From NCBI GenBank assembly GCA_002529455.1, contig NYMS01000063.1, forward strand, positions 248,001-312,000: a DNA stretch of 64,000 bases, read 5' to 3'. How positions within the stretch are numbered: position 1 is the stretch's first letter; each line of letters opens with the position of its first letter. The DNA comes from Glycomyces fuscus. Its GTDB lineage: Bacteria; Actinomycetota; Actinomycetes; Streptosporangiales; Streptosporangiaceae. Both the position numbers and the translations under genes were made by a program. Positions 43,540 through 64,000 of this stretch are shown piece after piece. The notes beneath the pieces are model-generated. The model was not told the DNA's origin. It made no database searches and saw only the letters and a list, made by a program, of their open reading frames with translations.

Positions 43540-44007
43540 CTACTCGGTGGCTCTGCCCCCGGCTTCCTCGCGCAGTTTCTCGCGGAGCCAGTCAGGGATG
43601 TGCTCCTCGTCCCGGGGAAAGTACTTGAGGTCGTTGGTGAAGCCCCAGGCGGTGGGAAAGGCGATGTTGGGGTCGTCGTCGTAGTTGTAACGGACCTTGA
43701 ACCTCCCGGGACGGGTGATGACGTACTTCATGGAGAACCATGTGCCCTTGCCGTCCTTGTACATCCCGGCACGAAGGTCGGCTAGCAAGGTTCCCGTGTG
43801 GGATGGAGCGCTGCTGCGAATGATGTCTCCGTTCTCGATTTCAACGACCATCAAACTGCTTGAATGATCGATCACCGACTCCCTGTCGTAAGTGATGCTT
43901 ACCCATTCCCTGGGTGCTTCTCTGAGAACTGATTCCCCGAACTCCTTGAGGATTTTCTGTTGCTGGGAACGGTTCAGGTGTCCGCGCTTGAAAAATCGAC
44001 TGACCAA
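43540..44007 (-). CDS. DUF600/YezG-like immunity protein
   Basis: A 155-residue soluble protein of the DUF600 (YezG) immunity family. The features are a helical N-terminus (QQKILKEFGESVLREAP), the strand region GTWFSMKYVITRPGRFKVRYNYDDDP, and the closing motif YFPRDEEHIPDWLREKLREEA. YezG-type proteins neutralise LXG/T7SS or related nuclease toxins. The 3' end of a second copy survives at 49328. No toxin is directly upstream. ATG at 44007. Confidence 0.82.
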   Translation of the reverse strand: MVSRFFKRGHLNRSQQQKILKEFGESVLREAPREWVSITYDRESVIDHSSSLMVVEIENGDIIRSSAPSHTGTLLADLRAGMYKDGKGTWFSMKYVITRPGRFKVRYNYDDDPNIAFPTAWGFTNDLKYFPRDEEHIPDWLREKLREEAGGRATE

Positions 44008-47130: not shown

Positions 47131-47390
47131 CGGGGTTCCCTCCGTCGGTTCCGGTTCCCCGGTATCGTAAAGTTCTCCTTTCGCCTGGCACGGTCCGGAG
47201 CCAGGTCTGCGCGGAGACCGGGACGGCCCGGGAAGGGGCAGATGGCACCTCCGCATCCGGCCAGGCCCAAGCCTTGGGATTGTTCAACGCCCCTGTTCGA
47301 CACGCTTTGTCACCGGTTAGCAGCGGTGACGTCACCTGCCGGGTGCACCGGCCGAACTGATGCGCGCACCTGCTGCGGAGAGAGGCGGGG

Positions 47391-47690: not shown

Positions 47691-47712
47691 GATCCTCCTC
47701 TCTTGATCAACC

Positions 47713-49284
47713 GTGATGACGCCTATTGTTGGACGACCCTTTCCGAGCAGGCGAGCTCGGGTGCGTCTCCGGCCAGTCAGCGGTCGCGGGCATCCGGAAC
47801 CTGATCACCGGAATGGTCTCCGTGTCCGCCTCTCCGCCCTGTCCCGGTGGCTGCCCTCCGGCTTCCCTGCCGGGATCCACGTGGGCCAGGAGCGCCCCGA
47901 AGCCCGCCCAACTCCCGCCGTCGTGGTCGCCGCCCCTGGTGAGGTCGTACCAGACGGCCGGGGTCATCGGCGGTCCGACCGGGACGGCGCGCACGGGTGC
48001 GTCCAGGGCGTGGTCGACGCCCAGGGCGGCGACGGTCTCCACCCCCAGGGCCACGCCCACCGGCTCCGGGCCACCCGTCCGGTAGGGGCTGCGGGTCAGG
48101 TCCGCGCGGCCCCGGCAGCGGCGCACCTCCATCACGTGCAGCACGCCCCGGTCGGTCAGCTCCCGCACGAGCGGCACCAGGGCGGACAGGTCCGGCTCCT
48201 GCTCCGGCGGGTGGCTCACCGTGAGCGTGACGGTCTCACGGACGCCCTCCCGGGTCCGGCGTACCCGCAGAGTGCCGCAGAAGGCGCGTACGCCCTCGGG
48301 GCGCACCGACGCGGGTGGTCCGGTGAACACCAGCCACGAGGGGCGGGGCGCCCGGTCGCGGCACAGGCCGGTGAGGACCTGGGTGTTCCAGGCCAGGGTG
48401 GCGGGTTCGGTGGGACCGAACAGGGAGGGGGCGGCCCCGGCCAGGGTCTCGGTGAGCAGCTCCACCGTCTGGCCCAGGACCAGGTTCGGATCGGCCGGGT
48501 GGTCGGCCTTGAGGGTGACCTGGAGCTGGTGGTCGCTCTCCTCCGGGACCGGTTCGGTCCGCAGCGGGGAGTCGGCCGCCGGGGTGCCGGGCGGGTCGGC
48601 GACGAGGCCGTAGCGTTCGTCCCAGTGCAGGGGGCGGCCGGAGAAGCCGTCGCGGAACCCGTCGCCGTCGGTCACCGCCCAACGGGTCAGGGGCGCGGTC
48701 AGCAGGGTCGCCAGCGGCTCGGTGAGGCGGCAGCCCGGTGGTGTGACCAGTTGCAGGCCGCGCCCCTGGCGTGCGTGCGCGGCCAGGGCGTCGGCCAGCC
48801 AGACCGAGACCGCAACGACGGGCCGGTCCTCGACCACGACGGCGGCCTCCTCGGTGAGCGCGGCGACCACCGGGTGCCCGGCGCCTTGAATCGGAATCCC
48901 GTCGAGCCGCGACAGGTGGTGCTCCGGTTGCCGCACCAGCCCGCCGTACCACTCCACCAGGGTGTCAGCGAAGCGGCGCATCGCCTGCCGGGTGGTGGGG
49001 TCGGCCAGGCCCGCCTCGGTGGTGCGGGCCTCCACCCACCAGGGCTGCGCGGGCAGGGCGTCGGGAAGCGCGGTGTCCAGGAGCCGTTCGGCCTCGGCCG
49101 ACACCGCGAGCCGCTGGGCGGCGTGCACCACCGCGACCAGGTGTCCCGCCTCGTCGCGTAGCTGGACGAGTGCGCCGTCGGCGGCCAGGCGCACGCGCAG
49201 TGACGGACCGGCCGCGGCAAGGGCGCGTGTCAGCCCGGGGATGCCAGGCGGATGCTCCAGGAGGGCGACCAGGGTGCGGCTCAC
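47713..49284 (-). CDS. DUF6177 family protein
   Basis: A 523-residue soluble protein matching the actinomycete DUF6177 family. It begins MSRTLVALLEHPPGIPGLTR. Recognisable inner blocks include WYGGLVRQPEHHLSRLDG, TPPGCRLTEPLATLLTAP, LHWDERYGLV and WLVFTGPPASVRPEGVRAF. The family often sits beside ESX/T7SS secretion-linked toxin genes; its function is unknown. The GTG at 49284 has AGGAG eight bases upstream. An internally deleted copy lies at 43254. Host-like codon usage contrasts with its AT-richer neighbours. Confidence 0.9.
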
Positions 49285-49327
49285 GGGAGGGGCTCCTTGA
49301 AGAACGGATGCGGGGGCGTGGCTGGTC

Positions 49328-49372
49328 CTACTCGGTGGCTCTGCCCTCGGCTTCCTCACGCAGTTTCTCGCG
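49328..49372 (-). pseudogene. 3' remnant of a DUF600 immunity gene
   Basis: Fifteen codons reading REKLREEAEGRATE plus a stop correspond to the last codons of the gene at 43540 (REKLREEAGGRATE). They sit in the same position relative to the DUF6177 gene. The rest of the gene has been replaced by unrelated DNA just upstream (right of 49375). Confidence 0.75.
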
Positions 49373-49406
49373 GAGTCAGACCAGAGACATTTGATGTGCT
49401 CTGAGT

Positions 49407-49730
49407 TCAGGGCAGTCCTGGTCGCTCCCATGTAGGATTGTCATCTCCGTCGAATCGCATTCCCAGGCGCCAGCCGGTCTCTTTTTCCAATAGGCGAAAA
49501 ATGTACTCAGCGTTCCTCGATACTTCGTTCCAGTCGGATCCGTAAACTTCTATGGCTGTGCTGAACCCATCATAGATGTCGAGCTCTTCGATATCGAGAA
49601 TTATCCCCCCCAGGCGAACCTCGATCGTGTCGACGATTGCTTTCTCGTGTTCATGGTCCGGCATGGAGCGGATCTTGGCGACGACTTCGTCCACTCCTTC
49701 GGATGTCATTATAAATTCTGAGCGCGCCAC
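49407..49730 (-). CDS. Putative immunity protein overlapping the toxin gene
   Basis: A 107-residue small acidic alpha/beta protein (FIMTSEGVDEVVAKIRSMPD, then GGIILDIEELDIYDGFSTAIEVYG, then AEYIFRLLEKETGWRLGM). Its ATG (49730) lies inside the end of the toxin-like gene (22-base overlap), which implies coupled translation and a toxin-immunity relationship. No family is recognised. The sequence is AT-richer than the host average, like its partner. Confidence 0.72.
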   Translation of the reverse strand: MARSEFIMTSEGVDEVVAKIRSMPDHEHEKAIVDTIEVRLGGIILDIEELDIYDGFSTAIEVYGSDWNEVSRNAEYIFRLLEKETGWRLGMRFDGDDNPTWERPGLP

Positions 49731-50179
49731 TTTTCTCCTTGTGGCCAGATGATCACGTAGTCATTGCCGATTAAAATGAGCTCATCAATGTCTCCGTCAT
49801 TTCTGGGGAGTGCCGACCGTAGTGCTGAAAGGGCTGTGTCCTGGGTAGTCCCCGCTGCTCGCAGGTCGATGGCCAGGCGGCTGGACTGCTTCTTTCCGCT
49901 GCGGATGTTCTGAATGACGGCGTTTTTGCTGTCGGATTCAGCTGTCTTGAACTCAAGGGTGAGCTGGGTTCCTGATATCACGAATTCTGGTGATTTTTTT
50001 CCTTCTATTGTGGACTCGTCGACCGAGAGCGTGCTGATCCCGTGGTCCTCCAGGAAGCTCGCAATGGATTTCTCTTTTTCGGAAAAGTGCTCCCAGCCTT
50101 CGCCGACCCTGCTTTCGATATGCAGCTCCCGGGCGGTCGGGTCGTTGGTCTCCCTCGGCGCATCGGCCTCGCTCCCCAC
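49709..50179 (-). CDS. CdiA-CT-like nuclease toxin tail
   Basis: A 156-residue product from GTG 50179. Residues about 22-150 resemble the CdiA C-terminal tRNase domain of the PD-(D/E)xK type: helical EGWEHFSEKEKSIASFLEDHG, then KKSPEFVISGTQLTLEFKTA with the E-x-K motif, then QNIRSGKKQSSRLAIDLRAAG. The frame remains open upstream of the GTG through a Pro/Glu-rich linker-like stretch (50180 to about 50290), so this is likely the tip of a once larger secreted effector. It is probably an RNA or DNA nuclease; the target is unknown. Immunity gene overlaps its 3' end. Confidence 0.72.
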   Translation of the reverse strand: MGSEADAPRETNDPTARELHIESRVGEGWEHFSEKEKSIASFLEDHGISTLSVDESTIEGKKSPEFVISGTQLTLEFKTAESDSKNAVIQNIRSGKKQSSRLAIDLRAAGTTQDTALSALRSALPRNDGDIDELILIGNDYVIIWPQGEKWRAQNL

Positions 50180-50952
50180 CGGGGCACCCTCGCTGCTCGG
50201 GGCCCTTCCGTCCCCGCTCGGGGGGAGCGTCTCCCACGGGTGCGGTGGGGGCTCCTTCTCCGTCGGGGGCGGTGGAGGACGGCGGCGGACCGCATGGGTG
50301 GTGTCCGCGCACTCACCGAGAGTTCCACAGGGGTGGGACGTTTCCCAATCCTTCGCCCGGTTTCCGAAGAGTGGGCCTGTGCGGTGCGGATGTGCGCGTA
50401 TGGGCAGGTGGCGCTGGACATAAACAGGGGGAACGCGAGGAGTCCCGTGGGTGTCTGGTGTCGCACGTCACTTTCGGAGGGCGTGCGGTGGGGCGGTTGC
50501 CGTGAGGGATGTGCGCAGGTCACACGCGTGTGCCTGAGTGGCGGGGGAGGTGACCGGATGCGGTCACGGGTCAGGTCGCAGATCCCCGCAGACGGCAGCG
50601 GCGCCCCGGCCGGGTGGTGGCGTGCGGACTCTGCGCGGATCGCCGGGAAGGAAGGGACCGCCGGGCAGGTGGTGTGTGCCAGCGGCCCCGGAAGGTATCC
50701 GATGCACGGTCGCTGGGCGGCCCTTCGGGTTGGGAGCGGTGCGGCGATGTCTCAGCGCGGGTCCTGCTCAGCCCGCGTGGGGTACCGGTGGGGGAGTGCT
50801 CCCGAGACTGGTGTGGCCGCATGTGGACAGAGTCCCGAAAGGGTCTTTAGTCCCGGGTCTGCACGCAGGTCAGCGGCGATAGCCTGTGTCCGCAGACCGC
50901 GCGTTCCCCCGCTCCACCGCGCGCGGCCCCCGGCGGCATTGGCAGGCCCACA
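50180..50952. other. Boundary region between toxin cluster and defence operon
   Basis: About 770 bp. The left 110 bp continue the proline-rich linker frame of the toxin tail. To the right lie the 12-base palindrome CACACGCGTGTG (50521-50532) and the small inverted repeat GTGACCG-GATG-CGGTCAC (50550-50567). Both are candidate regulatory sites for the divergent units. No gene is supported. The kinase promoter is presumably in 50830-50950, but I could not define it. Confidence 0.5.
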
Positions 50953-51990
50953 GTGAAACCCCTGACCCCCTCAGACCCCCGTGCCCTCGGTGGTATCGAG
51001 CTCCTCGGCAGGCTCGGTCAGGGCGGCATGGGCGTGGTCTACGTCGGCCGCACCGCGGAGGACGCCCCGGTCGCGGTCAAGACCCTGCACGCCGCGCACC
51101 TGGACCGCGACGACCTGCGCGAGCGCTTCGACCGCGAGTCCACCGCCCTGGGCATGGTCCAGGGCCCCGGCGTCGCCGCGCTGGTGGCGGTCTCCGAGCG
51201 CGACGACGAGACGCCGTGGCTGGCCATGGAGTACGTCCCCGGCCTGGACCTGGCCACCTACCTGGAGCGCAACGACCCCCTGGACGAGGTCGACGGCGCC
51301 GCCCTGGGCCTGGTCCTGGCCTCGGCCCTGACCGAGATCCACACCGCCGGCCTGCTGCACCGCGACCTCAAGCCCGCCAACGTCATGCTCGGCCCCGACG
51401 GCCCCCGCGTCGTCGACTTCGGTCTGGTGGCCATCGGCGGGGCGGGCGGCGACCTGACGATGACCAACATGCGGCTGGGTACGCCGCGCTTCATGGCGCC
51501 CGAGCAGTTCACCGACCCCACCGGGGTGACCACGGCCGCCGACGTCTACGCCCTGGGCGTGATCCTGGCCTACGCCACCTCCGGGCGCTACCCCTACAAC
51601 GGCTCCACCCCCGAGGCCCTGGGCATGGCGGCGGTCAGCCCCGACGTGCACCCCGACCTGTCGGAGGTCCCGGCCGGACTGCTCCCACTGGTCACCGAGC
51701 TGATGGCGACCACCCCCGGGAGCCGACCGGCGCTGGCCGACGTGCGCGCCCGGCTGACCGAGTTCCTCGCGGCCGCGGGGCTCTCCCCGGGGGCCGCCCG
51801 TGCCCGGCTTGCCGAGCACACCCACGTCGAGGGCACGGGGATCGCCGACACCATCCCGGCCGCCACACGCCCCGCGGCCACCACCCGGCCCGCCACGGCT
51901 CCGCTGCGGACCGGGACCGGGAATGGAACCCGGCTCGCGGCCCGCACGGCCGCCCGGCTGCGCAGGGCCTACGCGCGCCCCGCAGCCTGA
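50953..51990 (+). CDS. Soluble Ser/Thr protein kinase
   Basis: A 345-residue Hanks-type kinase. It has the glycine loop LGQGGMGVVYVG (residues 21-32), ATP lysine K43 (VAVKTLH), catalytic loop HRDLKPANVML near residue 136, DFG near 156, and activation segment ending MAPEQF. The kinase domain ends near residue 280. A short Ala/Thr/Arg-rich tail follows, without a transmembrane helix or sensor domain, so it is cytosolic and unlike the PASTA or PknB type. It is the first gene of the plus-strand defence series, 97 bp before the SNF2 gene. A regulatory or abortive role comparable to PglW-type kinases is inference. GTG at 50953. Confidence 0.92.
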   Translation: MKPLTPSDPRALGGIELLGRLGQGGMGVVYVGRTAEDAPVAVKTLHAAHLDRDDLRERFDRESTALGMVQGPGVAALVAVSERDDETPWLAMEYVPGLDLATYLERNDPLDEVDGAALGLVLASALTEIHTAGLLHRDLKPANVMLGPDGPRVVDFGLVAIGGAGGDLTMTNMRLGTPRFMAPEQFTDPTGVTTAADVYALGVILAYATSGRYPYNGSTPEALGMAAVSPDVHPDLSEVPAGLLPLVTELMATTPGSRPALADVRARLTEFLAAAGLSPGAARARLAEHTHVEGTGIADTIPAATRPAATTRPATAPLRTGTGNGTRLAARTAARLRRAYARPAA

Positions 51991-52087
51991 GGCCCCGCCG
52001 GACCACCGTCCGGCTGGTCACCATCTGAAAACAGCGCCAACCGCCACCGGCGGCGGCGCGTGTAATCGGAACGAAGAGAACACCGCA

Positions 52088-54946
52088 GTGGACAGTGAGG
52101 CTCCCCCCTTGACCGCAGAAGCAGACGCCGCGCGCACCAGCCCCTTCGCCCCCGGGGCACGCGTGGAGGTGCGCGACGCCGAGTGGATGGTGCGCACCTG
52201 CACCCCCGCGGGCTCCGCGACGGACGGGTACATGGTCCGCGCGGTCGGGGTCTCGGAGTTCGTCCGGGGCGAGGACGCGGTGTTCTTCACCGGCATCGAA
52301 CCCGTCGACCTCCTCGACCCCGAGAAGACACGGCTGGTCCACGACGACTCCTCCGGCTACGCCCAGAGCCGCCTGTACCTGGAGTCGGTGCTGCGCCGCA
52401 CCCCGCTGCCCCAGTCCGAGCGCCGCCTGGCCATGCCCGGCAAGTTCCTGCTCAAGGACCTCGTCTACCAGCAGCGCCCCGCCGAACTCGCCCTGCGGGC
52501 CCTGCGCCCGCGCGTGCTCGTCGCCGACGTGGTGGGACTGGGCAAGACCCTGGAGATCGGCCTGACCCTGGCCGAGCTCATCCGGCGCGGACGCGGCGAG
52601 CGCATCCTCGTCGTCACCCCGCAGCAGGTCCTGGAGCAGTTCCAGCAGGAGCTGTGGACCCGCTTCGCCATCCCGCTGGTGCGCCTGGACTCCGTGGGCC
52701 TGGAGCGCATCCAGCGCGACATCCCCGCCGGGCGCAACCCCTTCCTGTACTTCAAGCGCGCCATCATCTCCGTCGACACCCTCAAGAACCAGGGCAAGTA
52801 CGGCCAGCACCTGCGCAACATGCACTGGGACGCGGTCGTCATCGACGAGTCGCACAACCTCATCAACGAGGGCAACCTGCGCAACCAGCTCGCCCGGCTG
52901 CTCGCCGCCCAGACCGACGCCCTGCTGCTGGCCTCGGCCACCCCCCACAACGGCAATTCCAAGTCCTTCGCCGAACTCATCCGCCTGCTGGACCCGGCCG
53001 CCATCGCCGACCCCGAGAACTACGGCGCCGAGGAGATCGAGCACCTCTACATCCGCCGCACCAAGATCCACCCCGAGGTGCGCGCGGAGATGGGCGACGA
53101 CTGGCCCGAGCGCGGTCCCTCCCTGTCGGTGCGCTGCACCGCCACCCCCGCCGAGGAGGCCGTCTTCGCCGAACTCGCCCAGGTGTGGATGGCCGGGGAC
53201 GCTCGCCAGGGCGGACCGGTGGTGCGCGGGAAGGACCACCTGTTCCCCTACACCCTGCTCAAGGCCTTCCTGTCCTCGCACGTGGCCCTGGCCGCCACGG
53301 TCGCCAACCGCCTGAAGACCATCACGCACAAGGACACCGGCCGCCTCAAGGACGGCGAGGACGAGCGCGAGCACGCTGCCCTGCGCACCCTGGGCGACCT
53401 GGCCGCCGAGATCGACGAATCCAGCTCGGCCAAGTTCACCACCCTCGTCCAACAGCTCAAGGAGATCGGGGTCGGCAAGGGCAGCGACACCCGCGCCGTG
53501 GTCTTCTCCGAGTCCGTGCCCACCCTGGGGTGGCTGCACGAGACCCTGCCCGAGGCACTGGGCCTGAAGGACGACCAGGTGGCCCTGATGCACGGCGGCC
53601 TGTCCGACACCGAACAGCAGCGCCTGATCAGCGACTTCGCCCTGGAGGACAGCAGGGTCCGGGTCTTCGTCACCGGCGACGTGGCCTCCGAGGGCGTCAA
53701 CCTCCACCGCCAGTGCCACCACCTCGTCCACTACGACCTGCCCTGGTCGCTCATCCGCATCGAGCAGCGCAACGGCCGTATCGACCGCTTCGGCCAGAAG
53801 CACGAGCCCCAGTTCCGCGCGCTCATCCTGCAGACGGCGACCGAGGGCGCGATGGACGACACCTCGGTGGCCGAGAGACTGCTGCACAGGGAGGCCGAGG
53901 CCCACCGCGCCATGGGCACCGCCGAGACGGTCACCGGCCTGCACAGCGCCAAGGACGAGGAGGACCGCCTCGTCCAGGACCTGCTCCGGGGACGCACCGT
54001 GGACGAGTCCATCGACGCGACCTCCGCGGACGGCGACGACGACGGCGGCTGGATCGGCGACATCCTCTTCGGGGACGTGGGCGTGCCCGAGGAGGCCGCC
54101 GCCCCCGAGCGCGCCCCCGAACCCCAGCTGTTCGACTCCACCGAGCAGTTCGTCCGCGCCGCCCTGGACACCGTCGCCGGCGACGTGGCCGTCGACGACG
54201 ACGGGCGCATCCTCGCCTTCGAACCGCCCAGGGACCTGGCCGACCGCCTGAGCGCACTGCCCGGCGACTACCTGCGCAAGCTCAGGGTGAAGGAGCGCCT
54301 GCGCGTCACCTTCGACCGCGACCACGCCCTGAAGCGGCTCGACGAGGCCCGCGCCACCAAGACCACCTGGCCCGACACCGGCTACGTCAGCGACCTGCAC
54401 CCGCTGGTGGAGTGGCTGGTGGACAAGGTGCAGGTGCGCACCCAGCGCAACCAGGCCTGGGTCATCCGGGCGCCCCGGGCCGTCGAACCCGTCTTCCTGG
54501 TCCAGGGCACCTACTCCAACGAACTGGGACAGCCCACCGTCGTGGAGTGGATGGCCGTCACCGGCCTGCCCGGGGCCCCGCGCGTGGAGGACATGTTCGA
54601 GGCCCTCCGACGCACGGGCGTCGGATCGGGCATGGTCAACACCGGCCGCGCCGAGGACCTGTCCGCCCTCCAGGAACTGGTGCCCGACGCGGTCCGGGCC
54701 GCCCGCGCCCACCTGGCCGAGCGCAGCGCCGCCTACGACGCCCGCATCGAGCAGGACCTGGCCGCCCCCGAGCGGCGGCTGAAGGAGTGGCGGCAGCTCA
54801 GCCTGGAGGGCCTGGGCGAGGGCCGACAGAAGGAACGGGGACGGGTGCACGACACCGTCGCCGAACAGGAGCGGCTGATGCGCAGGATGCGCACGTCGGG
54901 CGAGCCGCTGCTGCGCGTGCTGGCCGTGGTGAAGGGGGAGAACTGA
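52088..54946 (+). CDS. SNF2-family helicase, DrmD-like
   Basis: A 952-residue SF2/SNF2 translocase. Motif I reads ADVVGLGKTLEIG (near residue 148), motif II VVIDESHN (near 252), motif III LLASATPHNG, and the C-terminal helicase half has HGGLSDTEQQRLISDF and QRNGRIDRFGQK (near 561). The architecture and neighbours match DrmD, the SNF2 helicase of class 1 DISARM. The C-terminal 300 residues are helical and probably bind a partner or DNA. GTG at 52088 chosen as the first in-frame start after the upstream gene; its ribosome site is weak. It ends two bases before the methyltransferase ATG. Confidence 0.9.
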   Translation: MDSEAPPLTAEADAARTSPFAPGARVEVRDAEWMVRTCTPAGSATDGYMVRAVGVSEFVRGEDAVFFTGIEPVDLLDPEKTRLVHDDSSGYAQSRLYLESVLRRTPLPQSERRLAMPGKFLLKDLVYQQRPAELALRALRPRVLVADVVGLGKTLEIGLTLAELIRRGRGERILVVTPQQVLEQFQQELWTRFAIPLVRLDSVGLERIQRDIPAGRNPFLYFKRAIISVDTLKNQGKYGQHLRNMHWDAVVIDESHNLINEGNLRNQLARLLAAQTDALLLASATPHNGNSKSFAELIRLLDPAAIADPENYGAEEIEHLYIRRTKIHPEVRAEMGDDWPERGPSLSVRCTATPAEEAVFAELAQVWMAGDARQGGPVVRGKDHLFPYTLLKAFLSSHVALAATVANRLKTITHKDTGRLKDGEDEREHAALRTLGDLAAEIDESSSAKFTTLVQQLKEIGVGKGSDTRAVVFSESVPTLGWLHETLPEALGLKDDQVALMHGGLSDTEQQRLISDFALEDSRVRVFVTGDVASEGVNLHRQCHHLVHYDLPWSLIRIEQRNGRIDRFGQKHEPQFRALILQTATEGAMDDTSVAERLLHREAEAHRAMGTAETVTGLHSAKDEEDRLVQDLLRGRTVDESIDATSADGDDDGGWIGDILFGDVGVPEEAAAPERAPEPQLFDSTEQFVRAALDTVAGDVAVDDDGRILAFEPPRDLADRLSALPGDYLRKLRVKERLRVTFDRDHALKRLDEARATKTTWPDTGYVSDLHPLVEWLVDKVQVRTQRNQAWVIRAPRAVEPVFLVQGTYSNELGQPTVVEWMAVTGLPGAPRVEDMFEALRRTGVGSGMVNTGRAEDLSALQELVPDAVRAARAHLAERSAAYDARIEQDLAAPERRLKEWRQLSLEGLGEGRQKERGRVHDTVAEQERLMRRMRTSGEPLLRVLAVVKGEN

Positions 54947-54948
54947 GC

Positions 54949-57900
54949 ATGGGCTACGACTCGCTGGTCAACCGGGGAGAGTACTTCTCCGCCCACTACC
55001 TGGCCGAGGTGCTGCCCAAGCACCTCAAGGGCAAGGACGGCCCCTTCAGGGAGTGGGCCGAGCGCGAGAGCGCCGAGAACAAACTGCCCAGGGAGGAGCG
55101 CTCGCCCGGGCCGGTGACCCCGCGCCAGGGGCTGCGCCAGCTCAAGGGGCGCTACTTCGGCGACCGCCAGGCCTTCGCCGACTTCACCGAGCAACTGCGC
55201 GAGGGCGACGGCACGCCGAGCCCCGCCGCGGTCGCCGCCCAGACCGAGCGCCTGCACGCCCTGCACCGCGACGTGCTCACCGCGCTCGGCTTCACCCCCA
55301 AGGACGCACCCGCCGAGAGCCTCTTCGAGCACGGCGACCAGGCGGTCCCCGTCCGCCTGGCCCTGCACGAGACCACCGTGGCCGCGATCGAGTGCGGCTG
55401 GGCCCCCGACACCGACGCCGCCATGGACCCCGAGGGCGCGGGACGGCTCCTGGACCCGGTGGACCTGGGCGGACGCGAGCGGATCGAGCTGGGCACCAAG
55501 CTGGTGTCCTGGCTCTTCGCCCGCGACGAGCACCTGCGCTACGTCCTGGTCCTCGCGGGCGGCGTGGTGGTCCTCGCCGACCGCTCGGTGTGGGGCGAGG
55601 GCCGCTACCTGGCCGTCAGCCTGGACACCGCCCTGGGCCGGGGCGACAACGACGAACTCGGCACCATCGCCGCGCTCTTCGGCGCCCAGGCGCTCCTGCC
55701 CTCGGAGGACGGCGGAGCCGAGGCCATCGCCACCCTCGTCGACGCCTCCCGCCAGCACGCCGTGGGCGTGTCCAAGGAACTGCGGGAGGGACTGCGGACC
55801 TCGGTGGAGATCATCGCCAACGAGGTCCTGGCCCGGCTGCGCGACCAGGGCGTCGATCCTGAGCGGATCGACACCCGCTCCCACCGCACCTTCGCCAACG
55901 AACTGGCCCGCCAGTCGCTGCGCTACCTCTACCGGATCCTGTTCCTGCTCTACGCCGAGGCCCGCCCCGAGCTGGGCGTGGTGCCCGCCAAGGACGAGGC
56001 GTACGTGCGCGGGTACAGCATGGCGCGCCTGGGCGACCTGGTCGTCAACGACCTGGTGGGGGAGGAGGCGCGTAACAGCACCCACCTGTACCAGTCGCTG
56101 GACCTGCTGTTCCGCATGGTCAACGAGGGCCACAACCCGCGCGGGCACGTCCTGGACCGGGAGGAGGCCGAGGGGCTCTCGGAGGGCGACGGGCTGCGCT
56201 TCGAACCGCTGAGGGCCGACCTGTTCGACCCCGAGCGGACACGGCTGATCGGCACCCGCCTGCCGCACCCGGACGACGACCCCGACGAGCCGACCATGGA
56301 GCCGCTGGACACCCGGCTGCGCAACGAGGCCCTGCACCAGGTGCTGCGCAAACTGATGATCTCGCGCGGCAACCGGAGGGGGCGCGGCGGGTTCATCTCC
56401 TACGCCCAGCTCGGCATCAACCAGCTGGGCGCGGTGTACGAGGGGCTGATGTCCTACACCGGGTTCATCGCCAAGGAGGAGCTGTACGAGGCGGCCAAGA
56501 ACGGCGACCCGTCCGGCGGGTCGTGGATGGTGCCGCACTCCAGGGTCGAGGACTACAGCGACGACGTGTGGGTGCGCGTCAAGGACGAGAACGGCAAGTC
56601 CACCAAGGACAGCCCCATGGTGGTCTACAAGCCGGGGTCGTTCGTGTACCGCCTGGCCGGGCGCGACCGGGAGACCAGCGCGTCGTACTACACGCCCGAG
56701 TCGCTGACCCAGCTGACCGTGCAGCTCACGCTGCGGGAGAGGCTGGACCAGGACGGGACCACCACCCCGGCGAGGGAACTGCTGGAGTGGACCATCTGCG
56801 AGCCCGCGCTGGGTTCGGGCGCGTTCCTGAACGAGGCCATCAACCAGGTGGCGGCCGAGTACCTCAAGCGCGCGCAGGCCGAGCGCGGGGAGGAGCTGGA
56901 CCCCGAGCGCTACGCGGTGGAGCTCCAGAAGGTCAAGGCCTACATCGCCCTGCACCGGGCGTACGGGGTGGACCTCAACGGCACCGCCGTGGAGTTGGCG
57001 GAGGTGTCGCTGTGGCTGAACGTGATGTACCCGGGGTTGCAGGCCCCGTGGTTCGGCCTGCACCTGCGGCGCGGTAACTCGCTCATTGGAGCCGGGCGGA
57101 GGCTGTACGACCCGGAGACGGTGAAGAAGGGCGAGTGGCTCAAGTCCGCGCCGGTGGATCAGCCGTTCCGGAACGGGGACATCTCGGAGGGGTACATCCA
57201 CCACTTCCTGCTGCCCGCACAGGGGTGGGGGAGTGTGGCCGCCGAGAAGGAGGCCAAGAACCTTGCCCCGGAGGACACCGCGAAGCTGGCCGCGTGGCGG
57301 CGCGCGATGCGCCGCAAGCCCAAGACGAGCGGGAAGAACTCGCAGTTCCGGCGCTTGCAGGCGCTGTCGCGGAGGGCTGAGTTCCTGTGGGGGCTGGTGA
57401 TCCGGCGGCTGGAGCTGTCAGAGCGGGAGGTCAGTCGGCGGGTTGACGTCTATGGCGCTGACTGGATCGACCAGCCCGAGCACGCTATCCCGAGGGAAGA
57501 GGTGCTCGCGAACCTCACGGAGAAGGGCACCCCGTACTGGCGGCTCAAGACGCTGATGGACGCCTGGTGCGCGCTGTGGTTCTGGCCGGTGCAGAAGGCC
57601 GGACTGCTGGACGGCAGCGACGAGGTGTACGAGCGGCTGGAACGGTCGTTGGAGGCCAGCAGCGCTGGCGGTAACGACTCGCTCTTCGGTTCAGCCCGGG
57701 AAAGCTTGGATCTAGCGGACCTGGAGAAGTGGCTCAAGTTCGCCGAGGCCCTGTTGGGTTCCCAGGACATCCCGGAAGGGACGCTGTTCAGTGAGATCGA
57801 GACCTTGGCTGATCTCGACGCTGCCGAGGACTCTCTTTCTCCCCTAATGGCGATGAAGGACGAGTACCGACTGGGGGAAAGCTTCCCCTGGCTCCACGAG

Positions 57901-59865
57901 GTCGAGAACCTCACTGAGCGGCATGGCTTCTTCCATTGGGAGCTTCAATTTGCGCACCTCTTCAAGAACCGAGGCGGCTTCGACATCCAGGTGGGAAATC
58001 CACCGTGGGTGCGCCCTCAATGGGACGAGGATAGCGTGCTTTCAGAGTACGACCCCTGGTTCAAGCTTGCAGATAAAATAGAAACTGGCATCAAGGTTAA
58101 CCGCAGAAGGAGCCTCCTGTCGTCAAGTAGTACAAGGGAATTTTTTCTTGATGAGATTGGAGCGGTTTCGGGCCTGCGTGATTTTTTGTCTGACAAATCT
58201 ACATACCCCTTGCTGGCTGGGACTCAGCCAGACCTTTATCGCGCATTCATGTGTCACGCATGGAGGGCGATAAACTCTCCGGGCATTGCTTCGCTGATTC
58301 ATCGAGATACTCATTTCAGTGGAGGGCGTGAAGGGGGTTTGCGTGCCGCCTCGTACTCTCATCTCAGAGTCCATGTCCACTTCTACAATAGGGCCATGGC
58401 ATTTCCCGACATCGATGGAAATAATGACTTTAGTGTAAATGTATATGGCGCGTCAGGGAAAATTTCTTTCGTGCATGCCAGTTGGATCTTGTCTGCCAGT
58501 GCAATAAGTGGCTCTTTTTCTCATGATGGAAATGGTGATCTTCCGGGGATTAAGCATAATGGGGCTTGGGATTTGAGGCCGCATAAACAAAGATTGGTTC
58601 GTGTTACGGAAGAATCTCTCGCACGTTGGGGGAAGTTGACGGGAGCAGGTGCCGACGAGTTGGATCGGGTGCCTCTCCTGTACCCTGTTACGGCTGCGGA
58701 GGTTGGTGCTATCGATGCCATGTCGAGTTACGGCCATCGGATTGGCTCCAATGGAGTTTTCTTGTCTAGCGGGTACCATGAGATGGCGGCAAAAAAGAGC
58801 GGTCTAATTCAGTGGAATTCATCGAGGCCGGCTTCTTGGAGTGAGGTGATTCTTCAGGGGCCTCATATTTCCCAGGCGACGCCATTTGCGAAGCAGCCAA
58901 ACGTTCCATGTATGAATAACCAGGACTGGTCTGGATACGACCTCGGGTCGCTGCCCGAAGATGCGGTTCCAGCGGCAAACTATGAACGCGCTGGATGTCG
59001 ATCTGACTACTTGGGTGCCCAAGACGTATGGGGTGGAAGGCGTTACACTGAGTACTTTCGTCTTGCATGGCGAGAAATGATTCCTCCGAATAATGAGAGA
59101 AGCCTTTTTGCGGCCTTGATCCCTCCCGGTCCGACGCATGTAAACGGAGTGCATACGCTTGCGTTTTCTGATAATAGAAATACGGTGTTGAACTCTGGAT
59201 TTTGGTCCTCTCTCCCCTTGGATTACCTGCTTCGAGTTACAAGTCGAAGGCATCTCCAGTTGGGTGATGTAGCAAGAATGCCTGCGCCAAGCTCGGGGCA
59301 TCCTTTGGCAGGTTCACTTGTGGTTCGCGCTATGCGGCTAAACTGTCTTACCAAGGCTTATGGTTTGCTTTGGGAGGAGCTATATGAAGAATCATGGAGC
59401 AATGAGACGTGGGCTCGCCCTTGGAGAAATCTGGATCATCTCGGAGATATTGGCCCTGAATGGGGGTGTGTGACTCCGCTGCGTACTGATTATGGGCGCA
59501 GGGCTGCTCTTGTCGAAATGGATGCTCTCGTTGCGGTGTGGTTGGGAATCGATGCTGAGCAGCTTGTTGCTGTTTGTAAAGCGCGTTACCCAATTCTTTC
59601 GGAGTACGAGGCCATGATGTGGTTTGATTCTAAGGGTCTCAAAATTGCATCTGACCATCATTCTTATGGTTACGGGCAGACCAAGGAAGACTTCCTCCAG
59701 CTTCAGAAATACCTGGAGACCGGAGACCCCGCCGACATCCCTGAAGGTTACTCCGCGCCGTTCTACAAGGCTGATCGGGAACGCGAGTACCGCGAAGCCC
59801 ACGCCCACTTCGCCGAGATCGTCGAGCGCGCCAAGCGCGACGGCACCTGGGACGGGGAGGTCTGA
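54949..59865 (+). CDS. Giant adenine-specific DNA methyltransferase, DrmMI-like
   Basis: A 1,638-residue protein of the Eco57I/PglX-like N6-adenine methyltransferase class. A helical N-terminal half ends at the target-approach motif SASYYTPESLTQLT (near residue 580). SAM motif I is CEPALGSGAFLNEA (near 618) and the catalytic motif IV is QVGNPPWVRPQ (near 1016). The distal third is the probable target recognition domain and is strikingly AT-rich. It pairs with DrmD by two-base spacing (TGA GC ATG) and with the helicase by a similar gap, so the three are one translation unit. A longer frame open back to 52183 is only the shadow of the SNF2 gene. In DISARM the methylase marks host DNA to protect it. 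Confidence 0.9.
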   Translation: MGYDSLVNRGEYFSAHYLAEVLPKHLKGKDGPFREWAERESAENKLPREERSPGPVTPRQGLRQLKGRYFGDRQAFADFTEQLREGDGTPSPAAVAAQTERLHALHRDVLTALGFTPKDAPAESLFEHGDQAVPVRLALHETTVAAIECGWAPDTDAAMDPEGAGRLLDPVDLGGRERIELGTKLVSWLFARDEHLRYVLVLAGGVVVLADRSVWGEGRYLAVSLDTALGRGDNDELGTIAALFGAQALLPSEDGGAEAIATLVDASRQHAVGVSKELREGLRTSVEIIANEVLARLRDQGVDPERIDTRSHRTFANELARQSLRYLYRILFLLYAEARPELGVVPAKDEAYVRGYSMARLGDLVVNDLVGEEARNSTHLYQSLDLLFRMVNEGHNPRGHVLDREEAEGLSEGDGLRFEPLRADLFDPERTRLIGTRLPHPDDDPDEPTMEPLDTRLRNEALHQVLRKLMISRGNRRGRGGFISYAQLGINQLGAVYEGLMSYTGFIAKEELYEAAKNGDPSGGSWMVPHSRVEDYSDDVWVRVKDENGKSTKDSPMVVYKPGSFVYRLAGRDRETSASYYTPESLTQLTVQLTLRERLDQDGTTTPARELLEWTICEPALGSGAFLNEAINQVAAEYLKRAQAERGEELDPERYAVELQKVKAYIALHRAYGVDLNGTAVELAEVSLWLNVMYPGLQAPWFGLHLRRGNSLIGAGRRLYDPETVKKGEWLKSAPVDQPFRNGDISEGYIHHFLLPAQGWGSVAAEKEAKNLAPEDTAKLAAWRRAMRRKPKTSGKNSQFRRLQALSRRAEFLWGLVIRRLELSEREVSRRVDVYGADWIDQPEHAIPREEVLANLTEKGTPYWRLKTLMDAWCALWFWPVQKAGLLDGSDEVYERLERSLEASSAGGNDSLFGSARESLDLADLEKWLKFAEALLGSQDIPEGTLFSEIETLADLDAAEDSLSPLMAMKDEYRLGESFPWLHEVENLTERHGFFHWELQFAHLFKNRGGFDIQVGNPPWVRPQWDEDSVLSEYDPWFKLADKIETGIKVNRRRSLLSSSSTREFFLDEIGAVSGLRDFLSDKSTYPLLAGTQPDLYRAFMCHAWRAINSPGIASLIHRDTHFSGGREGGLRAASYSHLRVHVHFYNRAMAFPDIDGNNDFSVNVYGASGKISFVHASWILSASAISGSFSHDGNGDLPGIKHNGAWDLRPHKQRLVRVTEESLARWGKLTGAGADELDRVPLLYPVTAAEVGAIDAMSSYGHRIGSNGVFLSSGYHEMAAKKSGLIQWNSSRPASWSEVILQGPHISQATPFAKQPNVPCMNNQDWSGYDLGSLPEDAVPAANYERAGCRSDYLGAQDVWGGRRYTEYFRLAWREMIPPNNERSLFAALIPPGPTHVNGVHTLAFSDNRNTVLNSGFWSSLPLDYLLRVTSRRHLQLGDVARMPAPSSGHPLAGSLVVRAMRLNCLTKAYGLLWEELYEESWSNETWARPWRNLDHLGDIGPEWGCVTPLRTDYGRRAALVEMDALVAVWLGIDAEQLVAVCKARYPILSEYEAMMWFDSKGLKIASDHHSYGYGQTKEDFLQLQKYLETGDPADIPEGYSAPFYKADREREYREAHAHFAEIVERAKRDGTWDGEV
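57930..59700 (+). other. AT-rich mosaic segment over the target recognition region
   Basis: Within the methyltransferase gene, base composition changes abruptly near 57930 from GC-saturated third positions to frequent A/T (many AAT, GAT, TCT, TTG codons). It reverts near 59700. The frame is continuous through both borders. The segment begins around motif IV and covers most of the presumed target recognition domain, suggesting replacement by recombination with a lower-GC donor. Confidence 0.75.
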
Positions 59866-59867
59866 CC

Positions 59868-62800
59868 ATGCAGCCCACGCTCGCCGCCGCCGAGGTCAAG
59901 CGGAACATCACCCAGTACCTCTCCACGACCTTCGCGCTCGCTGACGAACCCGTCCGCGAAGGGCTGGAAGCCTTCTTCAACGACCCCCGCCAAGGCATTT
60001 TCCGGGGCCCCTACCTCCGCGTCCGCACGCCCTTCCGCCACGCCGACGACTCCTGGCACGAGCACCTGGAATGGCGTCCGGCCGGGTTCAAGCCCTTCCT
60101 CCACCAGGCCAAGGCCTTCCAGCGCCTGTCCACCCTCCACGGCCCCGCCCAGCCCACCCTCATCACCACCGGCACCGGCTCCGGCAAGACCGAGTCCTTC
60201 CTCATCCCCCTCCTGGACCACTGCCGCCGCGAGCGCGCCGCCGGGAACACCGGCATCAAGGCCGTCCTGCTCTACCCCATGAACGCCCTGGCCACCGACC
60301 AGGCCCAGCGCCTCAACGAGTACCTCTCCGACCCGGCCCTGTCCCAGGTCACCGCCGGCCTCTACATCGGCGACACCCCCGAGACCGGGTACCCGCGCGT
60401 GACCACCGCCCGCGCGCAGATCCGCCGCCAGCGCCCCGACATCCTCATCACCAACTACAAGATGCTGGACCTGCTCCTCCAGCGCGAGCAGGACCTTTCC
60501 CTCTGGAAGGACTCCGCCCTCACCTACGTCGTCGTGGACGAGTTCCACACCTACGACGGCGCCCAGGGCACCGACGTGGCCATGCTGCTGCGCCGCCTGT
60601 CCTCCGCCACCGGCAATGCCCGGCCGGGCCGCCCGCTGGGCGACATCTGCCCAGTAGCCACCAGCGCCACCCTCGGCCAGGACGGCAAGGACGGCGCCAG
60701 CACCGCTAGCAGCCCCGGCACCCCCGGCAGCGACACCCCCACCCCGGCCGACCGCATCCGCGAGGTCGCCGCCACCGTCTTCGCCACCGAGTTCGGCCCC
60801 GACTCCGTGGTGGGAGAGGACCGGCTGGCCGTCGACGAGTTCATGGACAAGCTGGACTACGAGCTGCCGGTCCCCGACCCGGTCGTGGTCGCGCGCATCC
60901 GCGACCCGCACAGCGACCCCACCGCCATGGGCCGCATCATGGCCGCCTTCACCGACCGCGACGACCTCACCCCGCGTGAACTCGGCGCCGTCCTGCGCAC
61001 ACACATCCTCACCAAGGCCGTCCTGCACATCCTCGACGGCACGGTCGCCCCCATGGACAGGGTCCTGGAGGAGATCCCCGACCGCGGCGCCTACGCCTGG
61101 GGCCGCGCGCTGAGCAGCGCCCCCGAGCACGCCGCCGAGGCCCTGGCCCGCTACGTGGCCCTGCTCTCCACCGCCCGCGACCCCGACGCCCCCGAGGACG
61201 GACCCGACCGCCCCCTGGTCACCGTCGAGACCCACCTGTGGGTCCGCTCGGTCTCCCGCCTCCTGCGCGCCGTCGCCGACAGGCCCTCCTTCGCCTGGCA
61301 CGGAGAGACCCTGCCCGCCCTGGGCGCGGAGACCACCAATGCCAACCTCGGCCGCGCCAACCTGCCCGCCGTGTACTGCCGCCACTGCGGACGCTCGGGC
61401 TGGGCCGCCATCTCGCCGGAGTCCTCGCCCTCGGACCTGGTCACCGACCCCGACAAGGTCTACCGGGGCGCCATCTCCAGCAAGAAGTACGTACGTCCCC
61501 TCATCCGGGCCAGTCGCGCCGAGGCCAAGGAGCGCCCAGCCGGAACCCTGGTGCTCAACGCCGCGGGCACGCACCTGCGCCCCGTGGACGCCGCCGACAT
61601 CACCAAACACGAGACCGGGCAGCTCGACGGGGTGTTCGTCCTCGCCGACCTCGGCCACACCAAGGAGTCCTTCCGGGCCGCCGAGAACGACCGCTGCCCG
61701 GCCTGCGACGCCGACCAGGGCACCCGCTTCCTGGGGTCGGGCCTGGCCGCGCTCGCCTCGGTGGCCGTCACCGAGCTGTTCACCGGCGGGCAGCTCGCCC
61801 ACGACGGCGAGGTCCCCAAGACGCTGATGTTCAGCGACTCGGTGCAGGACGCCGCCCACCGGGCCGGGTTCGTCTCCAACCGCTCCTACACCTTCTCCGC
61901 GCGCGCCCTGCTGGCCTCCCGCCTGCCCGCCGACGGCTCGCCCATCGACCTCAACGACCTCATCGCCGACACCGTCGAGCACGCCGAGGACCCCGCCTAC
62001 CTGGCGTGCGTGGTCCCGCCGGACATGCACGACCTGCCCGGCATCGACCGGCTGCTGGCGGGGGAGAGCGGCGGCGGCACCCGCGAGTGGGACCTGGTCG
62101 GCGAGCGCCTGGCCTTCACCGCCGTGCTGGAGTTCGGGCTGCGCTCCCGCCAGGGCCGCACCCTGGAGCTGACCCGCACCGCCGCCGCCCAGATCCGCCT
62201 GGACGAGCCCGACCGCATCGCCGCGCTGGCCCGCGACATCCTCCAGCACAGCGGAGACCAGCTCGGCGAGCGCCTCGACCTGTCCGTCTTCCGGGGGTAC
62301 GTGCGCGGCCTGCTGGAGCGCGTGCGCACCCGGGGCGGCATCGGCCACCACTGGCTCGACCCCTGGGTCCACAACGCGGGCACCAGGCGCTTCGGCACCA
62401 TCTGGGGCCAGCGCCCCGACGGCATGCCCGCCTTCCCCAAGCCCCGGGGCGGCTCCGGCCTGCCCGCGCCGCGCTTCGTCACCGACCAGCGCAAGGAACG
62501 CAGCGAGTTCGACTCCATCGCCGGAAGCGGCACCTGGTACCAGGACTGGACCGTGCGCTGTCTCCAGGTCAAGGCCGACACCGTGCCCCGCTACCTGGGG
62601 CGCCTCCTGGACGTGCTGCACGACGAGGGCGTCCTCACCCGCACCACCGCCGCCGACGGCTCCACCCGCGTCTACGGCCTCACCCCCGGGCACGTCCAGG
62701 TCCGGAAGCTGACCGAGGGGGACGCCGTCGTCACCGGCGGCCTGCGCTGCCACGTGTGCAACTGGCGCCAGACCGTCCACCCCGACCACGGCGCCGACTG

Positions 62801-64000
62801 GGAGGCCGCGGCCTGCCCCCGCTACCGGTGCACCGGCCGCCTCACCGTCGACGAGGACCGCCGCTTCACCGACGACTACTACCGCCGCCTCTACCTGGAG
62901 GCCCAGCCCTTCCGGATCACCACCGCCGAGCACACCGGCCAGCTCACCCGCGCCCAGCGCGAGCGCGTGGAGGACTCCTTCAAGCGCGGCACCCGCTACA
63001 CCGACCCCAACGTCCTGTCGGCCACCCCCACCCTGGAACTGGGCATCGACATCGGCGCCCTGTCCGCCGTCCTGCTGGGCTCGCTGCCCACCGGACCGGC
63101 CAACTACGTCCAGCGCGCCGGCCGGGCCGGACGCCGCTCGGGCAACGCCTTCCTGCTCACCCTGGTCGGCCGCCGCGCCCGCGAGCGGTACTACCTGGAG
63201 GAGCCCCTGGACATGATCGCCGGGCAGATCGCCCCGCCCGGCAGCTTCCCCTCGGCGGTGGAGATCCTGCGCCGCCAGTACGCCGCCCACCTGCTCGACC
63301 TGGCCGCGCGCGGCGAGCTGACCGGCGTCCCCGCGCTGCCCGGACGCGCCGCCGACCTGTTCGGCGACCTGGGCTGGCTGCGCGGCTTCACCGAGAGCGC
63401 CCTGGCCTCCGGGGACCGGCTGGTCACGGGCTTCCTCGGCCTGTTCGACGGCGCCGGGGCCGAGGTGGACCCCGATGCCGCCGCCCAGCTGCGCCACTAC
63501 GCCACCGCGGGCCTGGAGGAGACCGTCACCAGGGCCGAGGAGGTCTGGGCCGCGCGCCTGAACGACCTGCGCGAGCGCGTGGAGACCGTCACCCGCTCCA
63601 TCGACGCCCTGCTCGACTCCGACAAGGAGCAGAAGCGCCGCAAGCGGGCCCTCCAGGCCGAGCGCACCGCCGTGCGCAAGCGCATCGGCGAGATCGGCCG
63701 CACCAGCGCCCACGGAGCCCTGGTCGACCTGGGCGTGCTGCCCAACTACTCGCTCGTGGACGGCGCGACCGAGCTGGAGGCCACCCTCACCTGGGAGGAG
63801 CGCAGCGCCGAGGGCGACCGCGACTTCCGCACCGAGGTGCGCGAGTACAAGCGCCCCGCCGCGCGCGCCCTCACCGAGTTCGCCCCCGGCAACCACTACT
63901 ACGTGCGCGGCTACCGGCACACCGTGGACGGGCTCGACATCGGCTCCATGACCCGCCCGGCCTGGCGGGACTGGCGGGTCTGCCCCGGCTGCGGGTACGT
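59868..64000 (+). CDS. Very large DEAD/DEAH helicase, Druantia-E/DUF1998 type (3' end outside window)
   Basis: The first 1,377 codons of an SF2 helicase that continues past the window. Motif I is ITTGTGSGKTESF (near residue 100), motif II VVVDEFHTYDG (near 223), motif III CPVATSATLG. Helicase C carries ATPTLELGIDIGALS (near 1050) and [11 protein letters not shown] (near 1082). Zinc-like Cys pairs occur at YCRHCGRSG (near 503), RCPACDADQ (near 607), CHVCNWRQ (near 963) and again at the edge (VCPGCGY). The layout and size match the large DUF1998-associated helicases such as DruE, rather than the shorter DrmA. ATG at 59868, two bases after the methyltransferase stop. A coiled-coil stretch lies near 1225-1290. 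Confidence 0.92.
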   Translation, partial: MQPTLAAAEVKRNITQYLSTTFALADEPVREGLEAFFNDPRQGIFRGPYLRVRTPFRHADDSWHEHLEWRPAGFKPFLHQAKAFQRLSTLHGPAQPTLITTGTGSGKTESFLIPLLDHCRRERAAGNTGIKAVLLYPMNALATDQAQRLNEYLSDPALSQVTAGLYIGDTPETGYPRVTTARAQIRRQRPDILITNYKMLDLLLQREQDLSLWKDSALTYVVVDEFHTYDGAQGTDVAMLLRRLSSATGNARPGRPLGDICPVATSATLGQDGKDGASTASSPGTPGSDTPTPADRIREVAATVFATEFGPDSVVGEDRLAVDEFMDKLDYELPVPDPVVVARIRDPHSDPTAMGRIMAAFTDRDDLTPRELGAVLRTHILTKAVLHILDGTVAPMDRVLEEIPDRGAYAWGRALSSAPEHAAEALARYVALLSTARDPDAPEDGPDRPLVTVETHLWVRSVSRLLRAVADRPSFAWHGETLPALGAETTNANLGRANLPAVYCRHCGRSGWAAISPESSPSDLVTDPDKVYRGAISSKKYVRPLIRASRAEAKERPAGTLVLNAAGTHLRPVDAADITKHETGQLDGVFVLADLGHTKESFRAAENDRCPACDADQGTRFLGSGLAALASVAVTELFTGGQLAHDGEVPKTLMFSDSVQDAAHRAGFVSNRSYTFSARALLASRLPADGSPIDLNDLIADTVEHAEDPAYLACVVPPDMHDLPGIDRLLAGESGGGTREWDLVGERLAFTAVLEFGLRSRQGRTLELTRTAAAQIRLDEPDRIAALARDILQHSGDQLGERLDLSVFRGYVRGLLERVRTRGGIGHHWLDPWVHNAGTRRFGTIWGQRPDGMPAFPKPRGGSGLPAPRFVTDQRKERSEFDSIAGSGTWYQDWTVRCLQVKADTVPRYLGRLLDVLHDEGVLTRTTAADGSTRVYGLTPGHVQVRKLTEGDAVVTGGLRCHVCNWRQTVHPDHGADWEAAACPRYRCTGRLTVDEDRRFTDDYYRRLYLEAQPFRITTAEHTGQLTRAQRERVEDSFKRGTRYTDPNVLSATPTLELGIDIGALSAVLLGSLPTGPANYVQRAGRAGRRSGNAFLLTLVGRRARERYYLEEPLDMIAGQIAPPGSFPSAVEILRRQYAAHLLDLAARGELTGVPALPGRAADLFGDLGWLRGFTESALASGDRLVTGFLGLFDGAGAEVDPDAAAQLRHYATAGLEETVTRAEEVWAARLNDLRERVETVTRSIDALLDSDKEQKRRKRALQAERTAVRKRIGEIGRTSAHGALVDLGVLPNYSLVDGATELEATLTWEERSAEGDRDFRTEVREYKRPAARALTEFAPGNHYYVRGYRHTVDGLDIGSMTRPAWRDWRVCPGCGY

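Follow-up and report, generated by a model that had tools for sequence, protein, structure and literature searches.

Genes of the locus and their assignment

The window considered here, a stretch of 64,000 nucleotides (positions 248001-312000 of the host contig, NYMS01000063.1, labelled G000:C60, in a soil bacterium's genome of 6.56 Mb), carries towards its end a locus that is assigned below to the ARMADA Type II defence systems and that is preceded by a protein kinase gene. The genes for the kinase, an SNF2 helicase, an adenine methyltransferase and a giant YprA/DUF1998 helicase are all co-oriented on the plus strand. The first, for which the name armK is coined here, encodes a soluble Ser/Thr kinase of 345 amino acids from a GTG start (50953-51990, plus strand; Pfam Pkinase, 8.5e-36). 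After a gap of 97 base pairs (bp) follows armA (52088-54946, plus strand), which also starts with GTG and encodes a BrxHII/RapA-like (DrmD-like) SNF2 helicase of 952 residues with the Pfam domains SNF2-rel_dom and Helicase_C. The next two junctions measure 2 bp each and lead to armB (54949-59865, plus strand), encoding a PglX-like adenine methyltransferase of 1638 residues with an NPPW motif (Pfam Eco57I, 1.2e-13), and to armC (59868-64000, plus strand), of which the first 1377 of 2231 codons lie in the window. The initial annotation had described these four genes in one orientation and with this spacing, and the coordinates bear it out to the base.

The stop codon of armC lies past the window end, at window-equivalent position 66563, and the full ArmC protein holds DEAD, Helicase_C and MrfA Zn-binding (MZB)/DUF1998 domains (Pfam) in a single chain. 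The start of armD overlaps the end of armC by 4 bp, and this gene, wholly outside the window (window-equivalent 66560-68974, L010:5060-7474, plus strand), encodes a RelE-UvrD fusion of 804 residues. Its UvrD part is recognized by Pfam (8.8e-30), and its N-terminus, used as a profile of 25 rows, matches YoeB/RelE toxins in the PDB (best E 4e-4). Beyond the window there are thus both a DUF1998 end in the helicase and a further subunit, two of the features for which the initial annotation had recommended reading on. The PADLOC scan that it also proposed gave DrmD as the best model for the SNF2 protein, DruE3 for ArmC, and PD-T4-6 for the kinase, and it matched ArmD to GajB.

A RapA-like helicase, a PglX-like methyltransferase, a YprA helicase and a RelE-UvrD protein, named armA-armD, make up ARMADA Type II as defined by Bell et al. 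2025 (PMC12458937), according to whom all four arm genes of E. coli are required for protection and protection is not abortive. The gene order of the window and its contig is the published one. Compared with the ARMADA locus of E. coli ATCC 8739 (L017), one of the two strains used in that study, ArmA has 34% identity over residues 20-950 of 952, ArmB 32% over 1-1628 of 1638, ArmC 30% over 1-1854 of 2231 (83% of ArmC, 695 bits) and ArmD 35% over 21-766 of 804. The window proteins agree with those of E. coli at each of the eight positions that the published study mutated, among them K153 and D253 of ArmA, G622 and N1017 (of NPPW) of ArmB, and K107 and D224 of ArmC; the mutations were made in the NCTC 12900 system (PMC12458937) and are read here on the ATCC 8739 proteins, which have the same motifs at the same numbers. 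The gene order, the near full-length similarity of the four proteins to ArmA-D and their identity at the eight mutated residues together mark the locus as ARMADA Type II, with armA, armB, armC and armD all present, in a Nocardiopsis-like actinomycete, and not as DISARM, Druantia or BREX; Nocardiopsis are the nearest named relatives of the window at this locus. Of the initial proposal of a hybrid, DISARM-related array that might be ARMADA, the ARMADA part stands, as a complete Type II system, and the DISARM with a DruE-like protein does not. The four-gene class is already known (PMC12458937), and the new part is the kinase.

Descent and build of the kinase

The association of the kinase with ARMADA was assessed at loci collected from genome contigs by their similarity to ArmB, so that the presence of a kinase played no part in their choice. 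Of at least 573 such loci the 80 best, all from Actinomycetota, were used, and 75 of them were assessable, with armA and at least 1.5 kilobases (kb) upstream in view; L072 and L079 were left out because no armA was found on the plus strand, and L044, L074 and L105 because they lie too near a contig edge. A kinase gene is situated directly upstream of armA, on the same strand, in 63 of these 75 loci, with absence judged by tblastn at 1e-10 with one query. The chance expectation is about 2.5 neighbours in 75 slots of 1.8 kb, given that the upstream flanks, 375,420 bases in all, hold 7 kinase genes. The initial annotation had considered the kinase its least secure component, and the comparison of neighbourhoods that it suggested has strengthened this link. 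Within the genus of the window, ArmC was found in 9 of 40 genomes, the window's own included, and the kinase is present in all 8 that could be assessed (G019 was not counted, having short contigs). Two Streptomyces plasmids have the kinase and a Tsukamurella plasmid lacks it. A search of 198 genomes sampled from the phylum, with ArmA as query and E 1e-120 as threshold, matched the window's own genome alone, and the kinase count was not extended. The distance from the kinase stop codon to the first possible armA start is at most 150 nucleotides in 62 of 65 loci, and no terminator-like site was found on the plus strand between the two genes in the window; we infer that kinase and armA are co-transcribed.

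The descent of the kinase follows that of ArmA. In an ArmA tree of 82 rows, from which L105 (too short) and L015 (no armA in view) are absent, the presence of the kinase is accounted for by a single change, two contig-edge rows not being counted. The 14 kinase-less rows, including E. coli, fall on one side of a branch with 99% support in the SH-like approximate likelihood ratio test (SH-aLRT). Distances between kinase domains and between ArmA proteins agree over 66 rows with an r of 0.931, a value reached by 0 of 5000 permutations, and such agreement is expected from shared descent. Some placements that run against host relationships are alike in the ArmA and kinase trees, with Nocardia abscessus among Streptosporangiaceae and Saccharothrix with Streptomyces plasmids.

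The window kinase is also set apart from the other kinases of its host. The genome has 24 further kinases of the same kind, with 31-44% identity to the window kinase, and the ARMADA kinases of congeners have 54-88%. In eight of nine other genomes the window kinase finds its best match at the ARMADA locus; in the ninth, Pseudofrankia, the kinase of that locus ranks second. The top match in this genome (L142), however, adjoins a second ARMADA copy, so that the best match stands beside ARMADA in nine of nine genomes. In a kinase tree of 121 rows, 61 of 66 ARMADA kinases form one clade of 64 with a support of 88, short of the value at which the program sets its star. Of the three additional rows in this clade, L146 duplicates the L089 gene, and the remaining two are the supposed background kinases L142 and L163, each of which proved to be followed directly by another ARMADA copy, L142 in Pseudofrankia and L163 in Streptomyces scabiei. 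The kinase can therefore serve as a marker, since it was by way of these two stray kinases that both additional copies came to light. These copies (L167 and L168) are second kinase-armA-armB-armC arrays apart from L089 and L056; in L167 the ArmA and ArmB matches are split into several pieces.

The catalytic residues K43, HRD at 136-138 and DFG at 155-157 are present in the window protein, and the domain is followed by a proline-rich linker and then by a conserved end. The 66 ARMADA kinases are 314-463 residues long, and none of them has a membrane-like segment (mark 1.6) after residue 280, as against 38 of 43 other kinases, a background from which L142, L146 and L163 were excluded, being ARMADA kinases themselves. 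The conserved end, a proposed docking element, comprises residues 328-345 with the RLRRAYA region in the window kinase (51934-51987, plus strand). Across the 66 kinases R337 is kept in 92%, Y340 in 97% and A341 in 91%, and the pattern [LIVMF][RK]xxYA occurs within the last 30 residues in 57 of 66, as against 0 of 43 other kinases; L142 and L163 carry it as well. The nine that miss the pattern are four Actinomadura variants (LAxAY) and the five kinases outside the main clade (L081, L083, L086, L099 and L109), a second type whose own form of tail has two tryptophans and a final glycine. A helix is favoured in the tail over the linker by residue propensity in 56 of 60 main-clade rows (L066, with its short linker, was left out), a slight hint that the tail may be helical.

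Comparison of gene neighbourhoods, trees and motifs thus gives good support to the membership of the kinase in ARMADA, as a likely fifth component that is inherited with the system. No publication on a kinase in ARMADA was found in the literature searched, and the word "kinase" is absent from the main text of PMC12458937 (supplements not covered). The kinase is apparently undescribed.

The ArmB loop and possible control by phosphorylation

At one site, ArmB differs with the kinase that accompanies it. After the conserved WFWP, an insertion of 40-121 residues (median 91) is present in all 60 rows of the main kinase type that were counted, whereas the same site holds 14 residues in five of five rows with the second kinase type and 12-21 in 14 of 14 kinase-less rows; L104 is missing from the count owing to a split match. 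L[DN]G[ST] stands at the start of the insertion in 57 of 60 rows, and a loose LFG-like pattern is found in 51 of 60. In the window the insertion comprises ArmB residues 881-927 (57589-57729, plus strand), with LLDGS at the start and DSLFG inside. When loci with and without the kinase are compared, ArmB is the only one of the four Arm proteins with long kinase-associated insertions. These observations are suggestive of ArmB as the likely partner of the kinase.

A mechanism can be proposed in which the ArmA, ArmC and ArmD helicases and the ArmB methyltransferase would recognize and process invading DNA, as in E. coli ARMADA. The kinase would dock on this complex via its conserved C-terminal tail and phosphorylate ArmB, the variable loop behind WFWP being the most likely site. 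Phosphorylation would then set whether ARMADA acts, so that it does so only when due, and either arming or restraint could be the outcome. This control of ArmB is proposed by analogy with Pgl, in which, as described in PMC4365076, the kinase activity of PglW is essential for resistance and PglW is thought to signal to PglX via phosphorylation. That the kinase docks, which substrate it has, which way control runs and that the system is active against phages in this host are points that we infer. We assign a probability of roughly 0.7 to the reading that the locus is an ARMADA Type II system with a co-inherited fifth component, a kinase that would control it through tail docking and ArmB phosphorylation. 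A more specific version is tentative and falls somewhat short of an even chance: that the system is a phospho-controlled machine in which an LRxxYA-tailed kinase gates the methyltransferase via a purpose-made loop, an analogue of PglW-PglX that was built separately, with a second, differently tailed kinase in a sister branch.

Several observations weigh against the main reading, that of ARMADA Type II with a co-inherited, controlling kinase. Twelve of the 75 assessable loci have no kinase (L087, L092, L095, L100-L103, L106-L108, L110 and L111), and the sample of 80 leans to relatives of the window's ArmB. No kinase gene lies beside the ARMADA of E. coli ATCC 8739, the only locus outside Actinomycetota that was checked for one, and E. 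coli ARMADA works without such a gene (main text of PMC12458937). The kinase tail and the loop in ArmB both go back to the same branch of the tree, and the link between them therefore amounts to a single event. The five kinases of the second type form a separate clade in the free tree; when all 69 ARMADA rows are constrained to stay together, the likelihood is 3.18 above that of the free search and the constraint is not rejected (approximately unbiased test, p-AU 0.554), which makes a single origin of all ARMADA kinases possible. Finally, a Vsr-type nuclease at the C-terminus of ArmC was not confirmed: an LDG..H....N.IA.D..KR stretch near ArmC 1795-1815 is conserved in E. coli and relatives, but the C-terminal profile matched no nuclease among PDB sequences.

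The strongest of the alternatives, although unlikely, is that the kinase belongs to ARMADA but acts on ArmA, ArmC, ArmD or on transcription and not on ArmB. Kinase and armA are adjacent genes, and Ser/Thr positions conserved only in the presence of the kinase are found in all four proteins (8, 6, 5 and 3 in ArmA, ArmB, ArmC and ArmD). Such positions were dropped as evidence, however, since they are indistinguishable from plain descent, and in the same comparison the long insertions are confined to ArmB, where the loop is found in the loci of the main kinase type and in no others. Clearly less probable is that the kinase is a stable neighbour acting elsewhere, for example as a one-gene defence like PD-T4-6 or in general regulation. 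The PD-T4-6 models of PADLOC (2.1e-57), the lack of such a gene beside the E. coli ARMADA and the 97-bp gap before armA could be taken in this sense, but the kinase models of PADLOC are broad, 34 families matching this one protein, and a kinase acting elsewhere is hard to reconcile with its distance agreement with ArmA, with the ARMADA-adjacent position of the clade members elsewhere in two genomes, or with a tail motif that no other kinase in the background shares.

The preferred reading, that of a co-inherited kinase acting on ArmB, bears on how large methyltransferase-helicase defence systems, ARMADA and the related DISARM and BREX alike, spare their host and become activated, as the kinase, its tail motif and the matching ArmB loop name a candidate switch, a candidate target and the residues concerned. 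A kinase-methyltransferase pairing in another class of system would, moreover, suggest that phosphorylation is a recurrent means of control.

Neighbouring genes and comparison with known systems

The sequence upstream of the kinase holds about 1.5 kb without a convincing gene, followed by a DUF6177 gene (47707-49431, minus strand), a gene for a 429-residue protein without a Pfam match (45967-47256, minus strand) and a weak, below cut-off match to a YezG-like immunity protein (43540-43875, minus strand). An open reading frame at 50042-50956, which overlaps the kinase start by 4 bp and, if real, would tie the kinase to an upstream gene, was taken as spurious because neither PADLOC nor Pfam nor NCBIfam assigns it to a family and its composition is unlike that of a protein. 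A frame of 2560 residues at 52183-59865 was rejected as a gene, being the methyltransferase frame extended upstream across armA. ARAGORN called a tRNA-Ala (ggc) of 95 bases across the kinase stop codon (51908-52002, minus strand) where Rfam finds no tRNA, and this is probably a false call in GC-rich DNA.

On the other side, armD is followed by a divergent helix-turn-helix (HTH)-DUF5753 gene (69231-70154, minus strand; L010:7731-8654) and a HATPase gene (70177-70872, plus strand; L010:8677-9372), at the end of which, window-equivalent 70872, the contig ends. The same kinds of protein open an insert between armB and armC in many Streptomyces loci. Among L032-L111, the armB-armC gap exceeds 1.2 kb in 32 of the 56 loci in which an armC start was found (e.g., L051:15146-24853 and L094:15485-20907) and does not in the other 24. 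Families in these inserts, scanned by one representative each, include the HTH-DUF5753 regulator (34 loci), HATPase (16), HEC-01A/B-like (11 and 6) and NsnA/B/C-like (11, 10 and 5) proteins, and a caspase-SF1 helicase (9) with Beta_protein (9). The armB-armC junction, 2 bp in the window, seems to be a place where other defence systems nest. In two Micromonosporaceae loci (L038:23530-24345 and L040:23562-24317) a second Ser/Thr kinase gene, from another kinase branch, starts within about 100 bp after armD. Just upstream of the kinase-free ARMADA of the Tsukamurella plasmid are a helicase gene and a separate DUF1998 gene (L016:1-4413), perhaps a second YprA-type system alongside ARMADA. In L037, where most of ArmC had seemed to be missing, direct comparison aligns the protein over 1-2203 at 58%, and the loss was rejected.

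With DISARM class 1 the locus shares a DrmD-like helicase and a DrmMI-like methyltransferase that precede a YprA-family helicase, and it differs in having a RelE-UvrD protein in place of a separate DrmB and the phospholipase D (PLD) nuclease DrmC. That it is nevertheless a plain or hybrid DISARM, with drmD, drmMI, a divergent drmA and drmB and drmC further on, is scarcely credible, for although the SNF2 protein scores best with DrmD models in both PADLOC (4.1e-81) and NCBIfam (1.4e-88), the NCBIfam match is far below its cut-off (298 vs. 610 bits), DUF1998 is fused into the helicase, the next gene is RelE-UvrD, and neither a separate drmB nor a PLD nuclease gene was found between the helicase and the contig end, so that the sequence downstream of the window rules DISARM out on this contig. 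The likeness to Druantia lies in ArmC, the best PADLOC model of which is DruE3 (1.5e-93), but the match is split over parts of the protein. The DruE-like helicase that the initial annotation saw replacing DrmA and DrmB is ArmC, which matches E. coli ArmC with 695 bits and the neighbouring helicase of ATCC 8739 taken for DruE with 121 bits, over 76-276 only. No other Druantia component, such as DruH, was found in the PADLOC scan of the kinase and the four Arm proteins, among the 25 best models per protein, and Druantia was dropped for want of a partner component and because ArmC resembles its E. coli counterpart far more than the DruE-like neighbour.

BREX type 2/Pgl resembles the locus in that a Hanks-type Ser/Thr kinase is coupled with a PglX-like adenine methyltransferase in actinomycetes. 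PglW, however, is a multi-domain protein and the window kinase has a kinase domain only, and no PglZ or PglY/BrxC family was found by PADLOC, Pfam or NCBIfam among the neighbouring genes scanned, a search that covered the neighbourhood and not the rest of the genome; BREX type 2/Pgl was dropped on these grounds. The closest comparison is with the ARMADA Type II of E. coli. In ATCC 8739, a further YprA-type helicase, taken for Druantia III, adjoins armA in place of the kinase, and the window has both the kinase before armA and the extra ArmB loop, neither of which is found in E. coli. Gene order, near full-length similarity of ArmA, ArmB and ArmD, the alignment of ArmC over 1-1854 and a RelE-UvrD ArmD are common to both.

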